From assembly GCA_903882875.1 (NCBI GenBank), contig CAIRYQ010000002.1, positions 1 through 43,900 on the forward strand: a DNA stretch of 43,900 bases, in the 5' to 3' direction. Below, one piece after another: positions 7,735 through 12,020 of the stretch (position 1 is its first letter; each line of letters begins with the position of its first letter). Both the position numbers and the translations under genes were made by a program. The notes beneath the pieces are model-generated. The model saw nothing but the letters and a program-made list of their open reading frames with translations. It had not been told where the DNA came from and made no database searches. This DNA comes from an uncultured Spartobacteria bacterium. GTDB lineage: Bacteria; Verrucomicrobiota; Verrucomicrobiia; Chthoniobacterales; Chthoniobacteraceae.

Positions 7735-8709
7735 TCACGGTGCGAATTCCACGTCCACCGGCTGTCCCGGATGCAGTTTCGCCGCAGTCTCCGCGTCGAA
7801 GCGGATTTCGATCATGAAGACGAGTTTGCCGCGGCTTTCCTGACTGTAGATGACCGGCGGCGTGAATTCCGCCTGCGGCGAAATGAAGCTCACCCTGCCT
7901 GCGAACGGCTCGCCCACGCCGTCCACAAAGACGCGCGCACTCCCGCCCGGATGGATCGTGCCGACACGCGACTCCGGCACGAATGCGCGCACCTTCACAT
8001 TCGGCGGCGGCAGCAGCGCGACCACCGGCCGTCCCGCTGCGACCCACTCGCCCCGTTGATACAGGATGTCGAAAATCATTCCGTCCCGCGGTGCGCTCTG
8101 GCGCTTTTGCGAAAGGCTCCAGTCGGCCTTGGCGAGCATCGCCTGAAGCGCGCGCACGTTTGCCTCGGCCGCAGCAATCTGATCCTCGCGCGAACCCAGA
8201 CGCGCCGTTTTTGAATCGGCCTCCAACTGCGCCACGCGATGCCGGTCCTGATCCCGCAGCGCGCGCGCGCGATCCAATTCCTCCGCCGAACTTACGCCTC
8301 GACGGTACAAATCCTCCTGCCGCCGGAATTCCTTTTCCGAAAGCACAAGCGCCGCGCGTGCCTGCCCGAGCTGTGCTTCGAGGGAGTCCAGCTCCGACGG
8401 GCGGCGGCCTTTCTTCACGTCTTCAAGCGAGGCCTTCGCCTGGATCAACCGGCGATCCGCCTCGTCGCGTGTCGCCGTCTCCATTCCGTTTTCGAGGGAA
8501 AATAGCGGGTCGCCGGTTTTCACCTGCGCGCCGCGTTTCACGGCGAGCACGTCGAGCTGCCCCGCGAGCGGCGAGGCAACGTGGACGAATTCACCCTCGA
8601 CGTAACCCTGCACGCGCGGGCCCGGCGATCGCTGGCAGCCTGCGAGGAGGCCGAGCGCGAGCGCACAGGCCCGCATTCGCAGAGGATCAAAAATGCCGCG
8701 TGTGCTCAT
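7735..8709 (-). CDS. HlyD/YbhG-like periplasmic adaptor, probable lipoprotein
   Basis: A 324-aa membrane-fusion protein that would bridge the inner-membrane ABC pump to an outer-membrane channel. A lipoprotein signal is visible: the hydrophobic stretch ending LLAGC puts the lipidated cysteine at residue 25; starting at the ATG at 8676 (MRACALALG) would give a more usual short signal. A lipoyl-like half is at about 40-75, a long alpha-helical hairpin with heptad pattern at about 75-195 (RRLIQAKASLEDV...), then the second lipoyl half and beta-barrel. It is the first gene of the efflux operon. No dedicated outer-membrane factor is in the window. Confidence 0.87.
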   Translation of the reverse strand: MSTRGIFDPLRMRACALALGLLAGCQRSPGPRVQGYVEGEFVHVASPLAGQLDVLAVKRGAQVKTGDPLFSLENGMETATRDEADRRLIQAKASLEDVKKGRRPSELDSLEAQLGQARAALVLSEKEFRRQEDLYRRGVSSAEELDRARALRDQDRHRVAQLEADSKTARLGSREDQIAAAEANVRALQAMLAKADWSLSQKRQSAPRDGMIFDILYQRGEWVAAGRPVVALLPPPNVKVRAFVPESRVGTIHPGGSARVFVDGVGEPFAGRVSFISPQAEFTPPVIYSQESRGKLVFMIEIRFDAETAAKLHPGQPVDVEFAP

Positions 8710-10417: not shown

Positions 10418-11059
10418 ATGTCCCTGTTCCAACTCGACCCGCAGAGCATCGCCGCGCGCGTTCGTGCCGCGGATGATCGCGCTCCGTTGCCGACGTGTGC
10501 CACGTCCGTCGTGCGTGGCATCATCGGATTCACGCTCCTGAGCGTTGCGGGCTTTGCGCCGTGGCCGATCCTGGATCTCTGGTTGCGGCGCGGGACGGAG
10601 ACGCAGCTCTACATTTCGTGCGTCGCGATCTTCATCGGGCTGAGCGGGCCGCTGCTGCACCGGCTCATCATCGGCCCCGGATCGCTCGCGCGGTTTTACA
10701 AGCTCTTCGCCCCGGCGTTCATCGCGTATGCGGCGGTGTGGATTGCATTCTGGGTGTGGCTGCGCGGGCCTGAAGGCGAGATCGCGGGCGTGCTCGGCGG
10801 CGCCGCGGCGATGGGCGCGGTGCTCGCATTTGCGTTCGACGCGCAGCGGTCGCTCGTGAAAATTATCGCCGTGCTCGCTGTGCCGAATGCGATCGGCTAC
10901 TTCGCGGGCGGCTGGTTCGAGGGCAGGCTGGCGATCGATCACCGGCTCTCTGCGATGCTGCTCTGGGGCGTGTGCTACGGCATCGGCTTCGGTGCGGGAC
11001 TCGGCCTCGCATTCCACATCTGCCAGGCCCACGCCCGCGCCGCACTCGCCGGCAGGTGA
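10418..11059 (+). CDS. Multi-pass membrane protein, unknown function
   Basis: A 213-aa protein with about six hydrophobic segments: roughly 32-55, 62-80, 93-112, 120-138, 144-162 and 176-198, the last Gly-rich (GVCYGIGFGAGLGLAF). The first 30 residues are soluble and cytoplasmic in type. No family is recognised. It lies 55 bp after infC on the same strand; the gap shows no terminator, so co-transcription is possible. High GC and normal codon use suggest a resident gene. Confidence 0.7.
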   Translation: MSLFQLDPQSIAARVRAADDRAPLPTCATSVVRGIIGFTLLSVAGFAPWPILDLWLRRGTETQLYISCVAIFIGLSGPLLHRLIIGPGSLARFYKLFAPAFIAYAAVWIAFWVWLRGPEGEIAGVLGGAAAMGAVLAFAFDAQRSLVKIIAVLAVPNAIGYFAGGWFEGRLAIDHRLSAMLLWGVCYGIGFGAGLGLAFHICQAHARAALAGR

Positions 11060-11140
11060 TCGCTCCTCCGCGGAATACACGGGCCGGTTGCATTGAACAA
11101 CTGGCACCGATCTTGCGTCTCATGGTTGTGCGAATCAAAT

Positions 11141-11210
11141 CGGCGGCAGCGGTAAAATCCGCTGAAACCCGGCAATAAACCGGGACGGGGTTGGAATCCC
11201 CGGCCGCCGG
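11141..11210 (+). ncRNA. tRNA-shaped cloverleaf in the leuD leader
   Basis: Four stems with only Watson-Crick pairs make a complete cloverleaf. The acceptor stem is CGGCGGC (11141-11147) with GCCGCCG (11203-11209). The D-type arm is AGCGG/CCGCT (11148-11152, 11159-11163) with loop TAAAAT. The anticodon-type arm is CCCGG/CCGGG (11168-11172, 11180-11184) with a 7-nt loop CAATAAA. The T-type arm is CGGGG/CCCCG (11186-11190, 11198-11202) with 7-nt loop TTGGAAT. It differs from a working tRNA: no bases 8-9, no U33, C56 of the T loop changed to G, a one-base variable region, and no encoded CCA (GCA follows). It is either a tRNA mimic in the leuD leader or a tRNA relic kept by pairing. Confidence 0.5.
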
Positions 11211-11290
11211 CATTTTTCTTCCCGGCTGTGTGCGGCGCAAAAATTCCTGTTCCCTTTCCGCCGCCGTTCGCTTTCCTACCCGCCCTGCCT

Positions 11291-11839
11291 ATGGCCAACA
11301 TCATCACCAGTCCTGTCTTCGTCGTCCGCGACAACATTGATACGGACCAGATCATCCCCGCCGAGTACCTCACGCTCGTCCCCACGAAACCCGACGAATA
11401 CGAGAAGCTCGGCAGCTACGCGCTCATCGGCCTGCCCGACGACGCGTATCCGGTGAAATTCGTCCCCGCGGGAACAACGAAGACGCCGTATAAAATCGTC
11501 ATCGGCGGAAAAAACTTCGGCTGCGGCAGCTCGCGCGAGCACGCGCCCATCGCCCTCGGTGCGGCGGGTTGCGAAGCCGTGATCGCCGAATCCTTCGCGC
11601 GCATCTTTTTCCGCAACAGCGTCGCCACCGGCGAGCTCTACCCTTACGACGCGAACGAGCGCCTCTGCGAAAAAATTAACACCGGCGACATCGCCACGCT
11701 CGACCTCGACGCCGACACGCTCACCGTCAATGGCACGACCTATCCGCTCAAGCCGCTCGGCGAAGTGCGCCCGGTCATTGATGCCGGAGGCGTCTTCGAC
11801 TACGCGCGCAAGACCGGCATGTTGCCCGCGCAGACTTAG
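11291..11839 (+). CDS. leuD: 3-isopropylmalate dehydratase small subunit
   Basis: A 182-aa LeuD, the swivelling domain of isopropylmalate isomerase in leucine biosynthesis; it pairs with LeuC, which is not in this window. NIDTDQIIPAEYL is at 15-27 and the phosphate-binding signature GCGSSREH at 77-84. The length fits the short LeuD/HacB type (about 160-200 aa), so homoaconitase or methylmalate substrates cannot be ruled out from this subunit alone. The ATG at 11291 is chosen because the upstream frame is non-conserved. The cloverleaf at 11141-11210 is 80 bp upstream. Confidence 0.9.
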   Translation: MANIITSPVFVVRDNIDTDQIIPAEYLTLVPTKPDEYEKLGSYALIGLPDDAYPVKFVPAGTTKTPYKIVIGGKNFGCGSSREHAPIALGAAGCEAVIAESFARIFFRNSVATGELYPYDANERLCEKINTGDIATLDLDADTLTVNGTTYPLKPLGEVRPVIDAGGVFDYARKTGMLPAQT

Positions 11840-11946: not shown

Positions 11947-12020
11947 GCGGGTATAGCTTAATGGTAAAGTTCCAGTCTTCCAAACTGGCCATGAGGGTTC
12001 GATTCCCTCTACCCGCTCCA
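11947..12020 (+). tRNA. tRNA-Gly (anticodon TCC)
   Basis: A complete 74-nt tRNA with encoded CCA (12018-12020). The acceptor stem is GCGGGTA (11947-11953) with TACCCGC (12010-12016). The D arm is GCTT/AAGT and the anticodon arm is CCAGT-CTTCCAA-ACTGG with TCC at 11979-11981. The T arm is GAGGG-TTCGATT-CCCTC. It is a single gene, with no intron and no cluster. Confidence 0.97.

Follow-up and report, generated by a model that had tools for sequence, protein, structure and literature searches.

In the window, by which we mean the whole stretch of 43,900 nucleotides analysed from an uncultured Spartobacteria bacterium, a sequence that can fold into a tRNA-like cloverleaf stands shortly before the leucine biosynthesis gene leuD. 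The locus raises the question of whether this cloverleaf regulates leuD, works as an aberrant tRNA, or has another origin and role. A preliminary description of the locus held that the fold is kept by selection for shape and that it could be a regulatory tRNA mimic in the leuD leader, analogous to the thrS operator of E. coli. The features to which the text refers are as follows.

10418 to 11059, plus strand: neighbouring upstream open frame with no Pfam match; a relative lies upstream of the orthologous element in genome G027.
11094 to 11099, plus strand: TGAACA box, the upstream, -35-like part of a promoter-like motif (recurrence of GAAC-N17-CGTC).
11116 to 11119, plus strand: CGTC box, the downstream, -10-like part of the same motif (its recurrence, and the available part of PMC3397946).
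11141 to 11209, plus strand: the whole cloverleaf RNA element (fold stability; family of 18 copies with covariation).
11141 to 11147, plus strand: acceptor-like stem, 5′ strand CGGCGGC (fold; five of the pairs do not vary among the 17 copies that have sequence there).
11148 to 11163, plus strand: arm 1, AGCGG TAAAAT CCGCT (fold and family alignment).
11168 to 11184, plus strand: arm 2, CCCGG CAATAAA CCGGG (double changes in four of its five pairs across the family).
11186 to 11202, plus strand: arm 3, T-arm-like, CGGGG TTGGAAT CCCCG (family alignment).
11203 to 11209, plus strand: acceptor-like stem, 3′ strand GCCGCCG (fold and family alignment).
11210 to 11217, plus strand: GCA tail and a run of five T, a possible 3′ end (NCA tail in most copies).
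11240 to 11281, plus strand: upstream block of leuD itself, outside the element (shared by the nine leuD loci, by eye).
11291 to 11839, plus strand: leuD, the neighbouring gene (Pfam Aconitase_C; genus comparison).

The cloverleaf itself was confirmed as described, with four stems of 7, 5, 5 and 5 bp, all fully Watson-Crick, in 69 nt of the plus strand: 11141-11147 pairs with 11203-11209 (7 bp), 11148-11152 with 11159-11163 (5), 11168-11172 with 11180-11184 (5), and 11186-11190 with 11198-11202 (5). The end previously placed at 11210 is one base beyond the stem, which ends at 11209. The minimum-energy fold is exactly this 7/5/5/5 arrangement. Its energy of -40.9 kcal/mol compares with a mean of -27.1 for shuffled sequences (z -4.78), 200 dinucleotide shuffles include none as stable, and the same four helices are present in the centroid of the 251 nt surrounding the element. 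The tRNA features reported missing are indeed missing from this copy: bases 8-9 are absent, U33 is lacking from the middle loop CAATAAA, C56 is replaced by G in the T-loop TTGGAAT, and the tail is GCA, not CCA. The tRNA-model check that had been proposed, made with ARAGORN and with Rfam at the gathering score, gives no tRNA at the cloverleaf; the only tRNA called by either is tRNA-Gly at 11947.

The element belongs to a dispersed family. The genome of the window (G000) contains two further strong copies, 88% and 86% identical (BLAST with a 91-base query), which lie 8 kb apart on another contig, outside any leuD context, each directly downstream of a DUF5670 gene (Pfam). In the stretch concerned (L009, contig C111:72000-90000) the unit of DUF5670 gene and cloverleaf occurs twice, with genes for CsbD and P-II in the vicinity. 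BLAST (E 0.01) gave a match in eight of the 40 genomes of the bacterial family, that in G022 being only 30 nt long and not the element. A covariance model (R1), built from 12 of the 13 BLAST matches with the G022 match left out, found 18 matches of at least 31.4 bits when 213 genomes of the order were searched. They lie in nine genomes, all Chthoniobacteraceae, and are complete except for L064, which matches over 54 nt only and lacks the acceptor stem. The carriers, which include a genome (G017) matching the cultured Chthoniobacter flavus Ellin428, hold one to three copies above 31 bits. Since only nine of the 40 Chthoniobacteraceae genomes have it, the element is dispensable. The 17 full cores are 55-99% identical to one another, with a mean of 74%.

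Wider searches did not extend this distribution. In the order, R1 returned 15 weaker matches of 21.6-27.4 bits, one of which is a decayed copy in G017; the other 14 were all fetched, and ARAGORN calls a tRNA in 12 (8 Ser, 2 Ala, 1 Leu and 1 Val), leaving two uncalled. When a further model, R2, was searched in 384 genomes drawn from the class, strong matches (at least 65.6 bits) were again confined to Chthoniobacteraceae. Its nine weak matches, of 25.9-31.4 bits, comprise six tRNAs, two uncalled (L120 and L122) and one not fetched; the best tRNA match of R2 and the weakest element of R1, L064, score alike. Scanning genome_contigs (84,980 species) for an exact pattern, a method that misses sequence variants, returned 11 stretches, including one of Chthoniobacter flavus Ellin428, with titles naming Spartobacteria, Chthoniobacteraceae, Chthoniobacter or Verrucomicrobiota. 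Neither the exact pattern nor blastn gave a viral, plasmid or phage match, and an origin from any of these was rejected on that ground. As found so far, the family is restricted to Chthoniobacteraceae among the genomes searched. The decayed copy (L155 6299-6376, minus strand; G017 C48:18298-18375) has a broken acceptor stem and TGAACA-N16-CGTC retained upstream. A further R2 match of 30.9 bits lies outside the family (L120 1501-1566, minus strand; G430 C22:43163-43228); ARAGORN calls no tRNA there, arms 1 and 2 are kept and most of the T-arm is missing, so that it could be a chance match or a distant relative.

Comparison of the copies bears directly on the proposed selection for shape. In an alignment of 18 rows (A5), which was fitted to the covariance model and is biased towards its structure, 92.8% of pair cells form. 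Double, pair-keeping changes occur in 10 of the 22 pairs (4.3 in shuffles) and in 25 cells (7.0 in shuffles), counts that none of 500 shuffles reached; the number of further pair types was reached by 8 of 500. Sliding the partners by one to three columns brings the paired cells down to 27-53%. The first MAFFT alignment (A3, 12 rows), which is not structure-fitted, has 93.9% of cells paired (0 of 500 shuffles), double changes in five pairs (reached by 10 of 500) and 10 double-change cells (0 of 500). Its further pair types are no more numerous than in shuffles (136 of 500 reach them), and RNAalifold predicts 21 pairs from it unaided. Five of the seven acceptor-like pairs are invariant in the family and, because they never vary, speak neither for nor against the structure. 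The family alignment contains 19 G-U cells against 10 A-C cells, which favours the plus strand. In general, these data support a tRNA-shaped fold held by selection across the family, in line with the preliminary description.

At a single locus, shared by the window, G026 and G027, the surroundings of the element can be compared in three genomes. Intergenic conservation there extends from TTGAACA through the T-run and is lost downstream; on the upstream side it is seen mainly between the window and G027, the G026 contig ending some 60 nt upstream of the element. Over its 69 nt, the element has one difference from the window copy in G026 and two in G027, and it is followed in all three genomes by a run of T5-T6. 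The upstream frame has an 85% identical relative in G027, also upstream of the element. Between the window and G027, the six 100-column blocks of this frame have 75-92 identities each, against 35 in the last 86 columns beyond the T-run.

Upstream of the element, the two-box motif GAAC-N17-CGTC recurs in 8 of the 18 copies, or in 9 of 19 if the decayed G017 copy is counted, which keeps the motif though its acceptor stem is broken; three of these nine are orthologues of one locus, and the remaining 10 upstream regions do not have it. When gaps of 5 to 45 between GAAC and CGTC were scanned, nine matches fell at gap 17 and a single one at each of three further gaps. After removal of two orthologues and trimming of 12 nt at the stem end, the motif is present in 6 of 17 regions and is among the top 4-mer pairs, a rank that is a tie of two overlapping forms; the best 4-mer pair in 200 mononucleotide shuffles reached 4 at most. 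The spacer between the boxes varies among most loci (by eye). Bacillus ECF factors use TGAAC-like -35 boxes. In the available parts of two papers, it is proposed that ECF promoters commonly carry CGTC in the -10 region (PMC3397946), and spacers of 16-17 bp are given for Streptomyces sigma-E (PMC6767563). The motif thus resembles an ECF-sigma promoter and may act as one. Genome-wide it is 1.7 to 24 times commoner than a reversed control in all five genomes counted. Since the 30 inspected of 146 matches lie mostly inside long open frames, these counts give no independent support for a promoter, and the excess was set aside. A scan found no sigma-70 promoter at the window copy; by eye, the same stretch has a housekeeping-type candidate, CTTGCG-N17-TCAAAT.

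The likeness to tRNA is selective. Equivalents of U54, A58 and U60 in the T-loop are present in all 18 copies and C56 in six, which sit in G017, G019 and G023. All six carry a G in loop 1, and nine of the 12 copies without C56 have none, a pattern that suggests a lost elbow contact and may reflect few evolutionary events. There are four helices only, joined by 0, 3-4 and 0-1 nt, and two copies, L064 and L155, are without an intact acceptor stem. Where a tail exists it is NCA in 14 of 17 copies, and CCA in three of these 14. No 7-nt loop of the family has U33 before a usable anticodon (by eye), and ARAGORN calls no tRNA at six further copies (in L009, L029, L030, L048 and L049).

Several comparisons point to class II tRNAs (Ser, Leu, Sec). 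Because only 0-1 nt precede the T-arm, arm 2 suits a class II variable arm better than an anticodon arm. The element resembles class II tRNAs in its acceptor and T-arm stack of 12 positions and in an extra arm 0-1 nt from the T-arm, but it lacks one arm, bases 8-9 and the anticodon, and has C56 in no more than 6 of 18 copies. Most of the weak matches in the order are tRNA-Ser, and nine of the 12 tRNAs there are class II (8 tRNA-Ser and 1 tRNA-Leu), against only one of six in the class search. For two G017 copies the best Rfam match is tRNA-Sec (RF01852), at 18.9 and 19.4 bits, below the gathering score of 47; in the Rfam alignment of one of them the anticodon arm is mostly missing. The 43 ordinary tRNAs recovered in G000 cover all amino acids except Ile, a gap that may stem from the assembly or from the stretches sampled. 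In local alignment to these 43, Met, Ser and Leu come out on top (means 30.2, 30.0 and 28.8; shuffled mean 16.5, maximum 19.4), mostly via the T-arm and acceptor in the alignments looked at, and none is a clear direct parent. From the arrangement of the arms we infer an origin from a class II tRNA that lost its anticodon arm.

The readings that tie the element to leuD or to decoding both fare badly. With the leuD ATG at 11291, the gap to the element is 81 nt, in agreement with the roughly 80 bp reported before, and the window genome thus offers, like the thrS operator, a tRNA-like structure ahead of an amino-acid-related gene; unlike that operator, the element is not kept with its gene in relatives. 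leuD was located in nine of the ten genomes of the genus and not found in G027; in seven of these nine loci no element is present within about 350 nt before the gene (by eye), an absence named beforehand as refuting the link. Five of the seven loci belong to genomes without any model match, and in G029 the sole model match is a tRNA-Ala. In G026 the element is 3.6 kb from leuD, directly followed by an open frame exceeding 700 codons, a relative of which (74% identical) also follows the element in G027. G033 holds two copies on a contig other than that of leuD, and copies elsewhere adjoin unrelated genes, which speaks against a leuD-specific role. Moreover, the nine leuD genes have in common, element or not, a stretch of about 40 nt close upstream of the start codon (by eye). 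In the window this stretch separates element and gene, and it is the probable site of a promoter belonging to leuD itself. The regulatory link is not supported: as a general role, a leuD leader is refuted by the genus comparison, and a cis-regulatory mimic is very improbable. An aberrant tRNA working in translation would account for the C56-bearing T-loop (TTCRANT) of six copies and the three CCA tails, but hardly for the four short-jointed helices, the loops without U33 and anticodon, the failure of ARAGORN at seven copies including that of the window, or the nearly complete ordinary tRNA set of G000; its probability is close to negligible.

Two other readings deserve more weight, each being unlikely rather than implausible. 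The element could be a 3′ untranslated part of the upstream gene that ends or stabilises its mRNA, through RNase P cleavage or as part of a terminator, much as the 3′ processing of MALAT1 proceeds by RNase P cleavage that yields mascRNA. At the leuD locus a same-strand frame precedes the element in the window and G027, the T5-T6 run follows in all three genomes, three copies stand just after DUF5670-like genes (two by Pfam, one by eye), and the window copy has a weak mascRNA match in Rfam (22.1 bits). Against this, upstream neighbours, taken as longest open frames and not curated genes, vary by locus and are in some cases on the opposite strand; the promoter-like motif stands just upstream of 9 of the 19 copies, and a simple scan calls no terminator at the window copy. 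The family could, with similarly low probability, be a dispersed, partly selfish tRNA-derived repeat that spreads by duplication and decays without a cellular function. Loci that differ between genomes, the patchy presence, the broken stems of L064 and L155, and the doubled DUF5670-element unit of G000 fit such a repeat. It is at odds with copy numbers that never exceed three per genome over 31 bits, with double, pair-keeping changes across full cores down to 55% identity, with the far better preservation of the element than of its downstream flank at one locus in three genomes, and with the lack of viral, plasmid or phage matches.

The reading ranked first, to which we give a probability of about one half, is an autonomous, lineage-restricted family of tRNA-derived small RNA genes acting in trans by tRNA mimicry. 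Its observed basis is the dispersed family, the conserved structure, the conserved unit at one locus and the recurrent two-box motif. A promoter, in roughly half of the copies GAAC-N17-CGTC of the ECF sigma kind, would probably precede each gene. The transcript would begin with a short leader and continue into the four-way junction derived from tRNA, some 70 nt long, with the T-run after it at the leuD locus. This RNA would keep the acceptor-like stem, the T-arm and two other arms, its anticodon loop being unrecognisable, and most likely would act in trans as a stable RNA, its partner being a protein that binds tRNA on the acceptor/T-arm face. The analysis points to no particular protein partner, and across the 40 family genomes the distribution of Ro60 (TROVE) does not match that of the element. 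A Ro-associated Y RNA was rejected accordingly, TROVE being present in one of nine element genomes and 3 of 31 without the element.

No description of the element turned up in the open-access literature searched, and in Rfam 15 it has at most sub-cut-off matches. A permissive Rfam search with the window copy (271 bases) put the FMN riboswitch, DUF3577 and mascRNA on top, all far under the cut-off. The FMN riboswitch (RF00050; 26.6 bits, E 0.00024, gathering score 66.2) and DUF3577 RNA (22.6 bits, E 0.036, cut-off 42.6) are not listed for two G017 copies and were rejected. A hammerhead-like core was considered by eye and dropped, and inspection by eye gave no consistent loop-loop pairing. Among tRNA-like non-coding RNAs without decoding, mascRNA and MEN beta (RF01684) are eukaryotic and are released from a long RNA, and the window copy falls short of their cut-off of 42.5. 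The bacterial Y RNAs (YrlA) carry a tRNA-like module and so offer a bacterial case of tRNA mimicry, but the element has no further Ro-binding stem that could be seen and its carriers mostly lack Ro60. With pseudo-tRNAs it shares a conserved tRNA-like fold without a recognisable decoding loop. The closest known case in working, though not the same RNA, appears to be the pseudo-tRNA tRNA-Other of Bacillus cereus, which has a tRNA shape and works outside translation, as the element would; the available part of the source (PMC3399842) proposes it as the tRNA-like part of a regulatory RNA, with transcription linked to iron and stress. The same text gives tRNA-Other a Trp anticodon and places it inside larger RNAs and at the flank of a genomic island. 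The element differs in its four helices, in the lack of an anticodon, in its lineage and in being supported by covariation.

A bolder version of the preferred reading, which we regard as speculative and rather improbable, takes the element to be a stress-promoter-driven class II tRNA without anticodon arm that serves as a non-translational aminoacyl carrier or decoy. Its arms would be the acceptor, a D-like arm, a long variable arm and the T-arm. Seryl-tRNA synthetase recognises its tRNAs by the variable arm, not by the anticodon, so the predicted RNA could be charged and would never enter decoding; alternatively, it could occupy this synthetase or another tRNA-binding protein. To our knowledge, bacteria have yielded few examples of tRNA-like RNAs that work outside translation. 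The family would show a tRNA shape kept under selection after loss of the decoding loop, with, in one genus, the elbow base C56 also lost. Its expression, partner and function are directly testable, because the family is structured and covarying, has paralogues and a candidate promoter motif, and occurs in a host that is in culture (Chthoniobacter flavus).

Some minor observations concern the RNA genes of the carriers. In G000, one tRNA-Pro(tgg) called by ARAGORN has class II length (L180, C50:1416-1559) and looks unlike the ordinary tRNA-Pro(tgg) in L113. G017 has a tRNA array with many weak members, 16 tRNA-model matches of 25.7-62.3 bits within 9 kb (C52:145540-154319); at 153302-153631 the array also contains a TROVE (Ro60) domain match. 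An Acido-Lenti-1 RNA (RF01687; 43.7 bits, cut-off 37) is found at 8471-8514 on the plus strand of L060, about 2 kb downstream of a G017 copy of the element.
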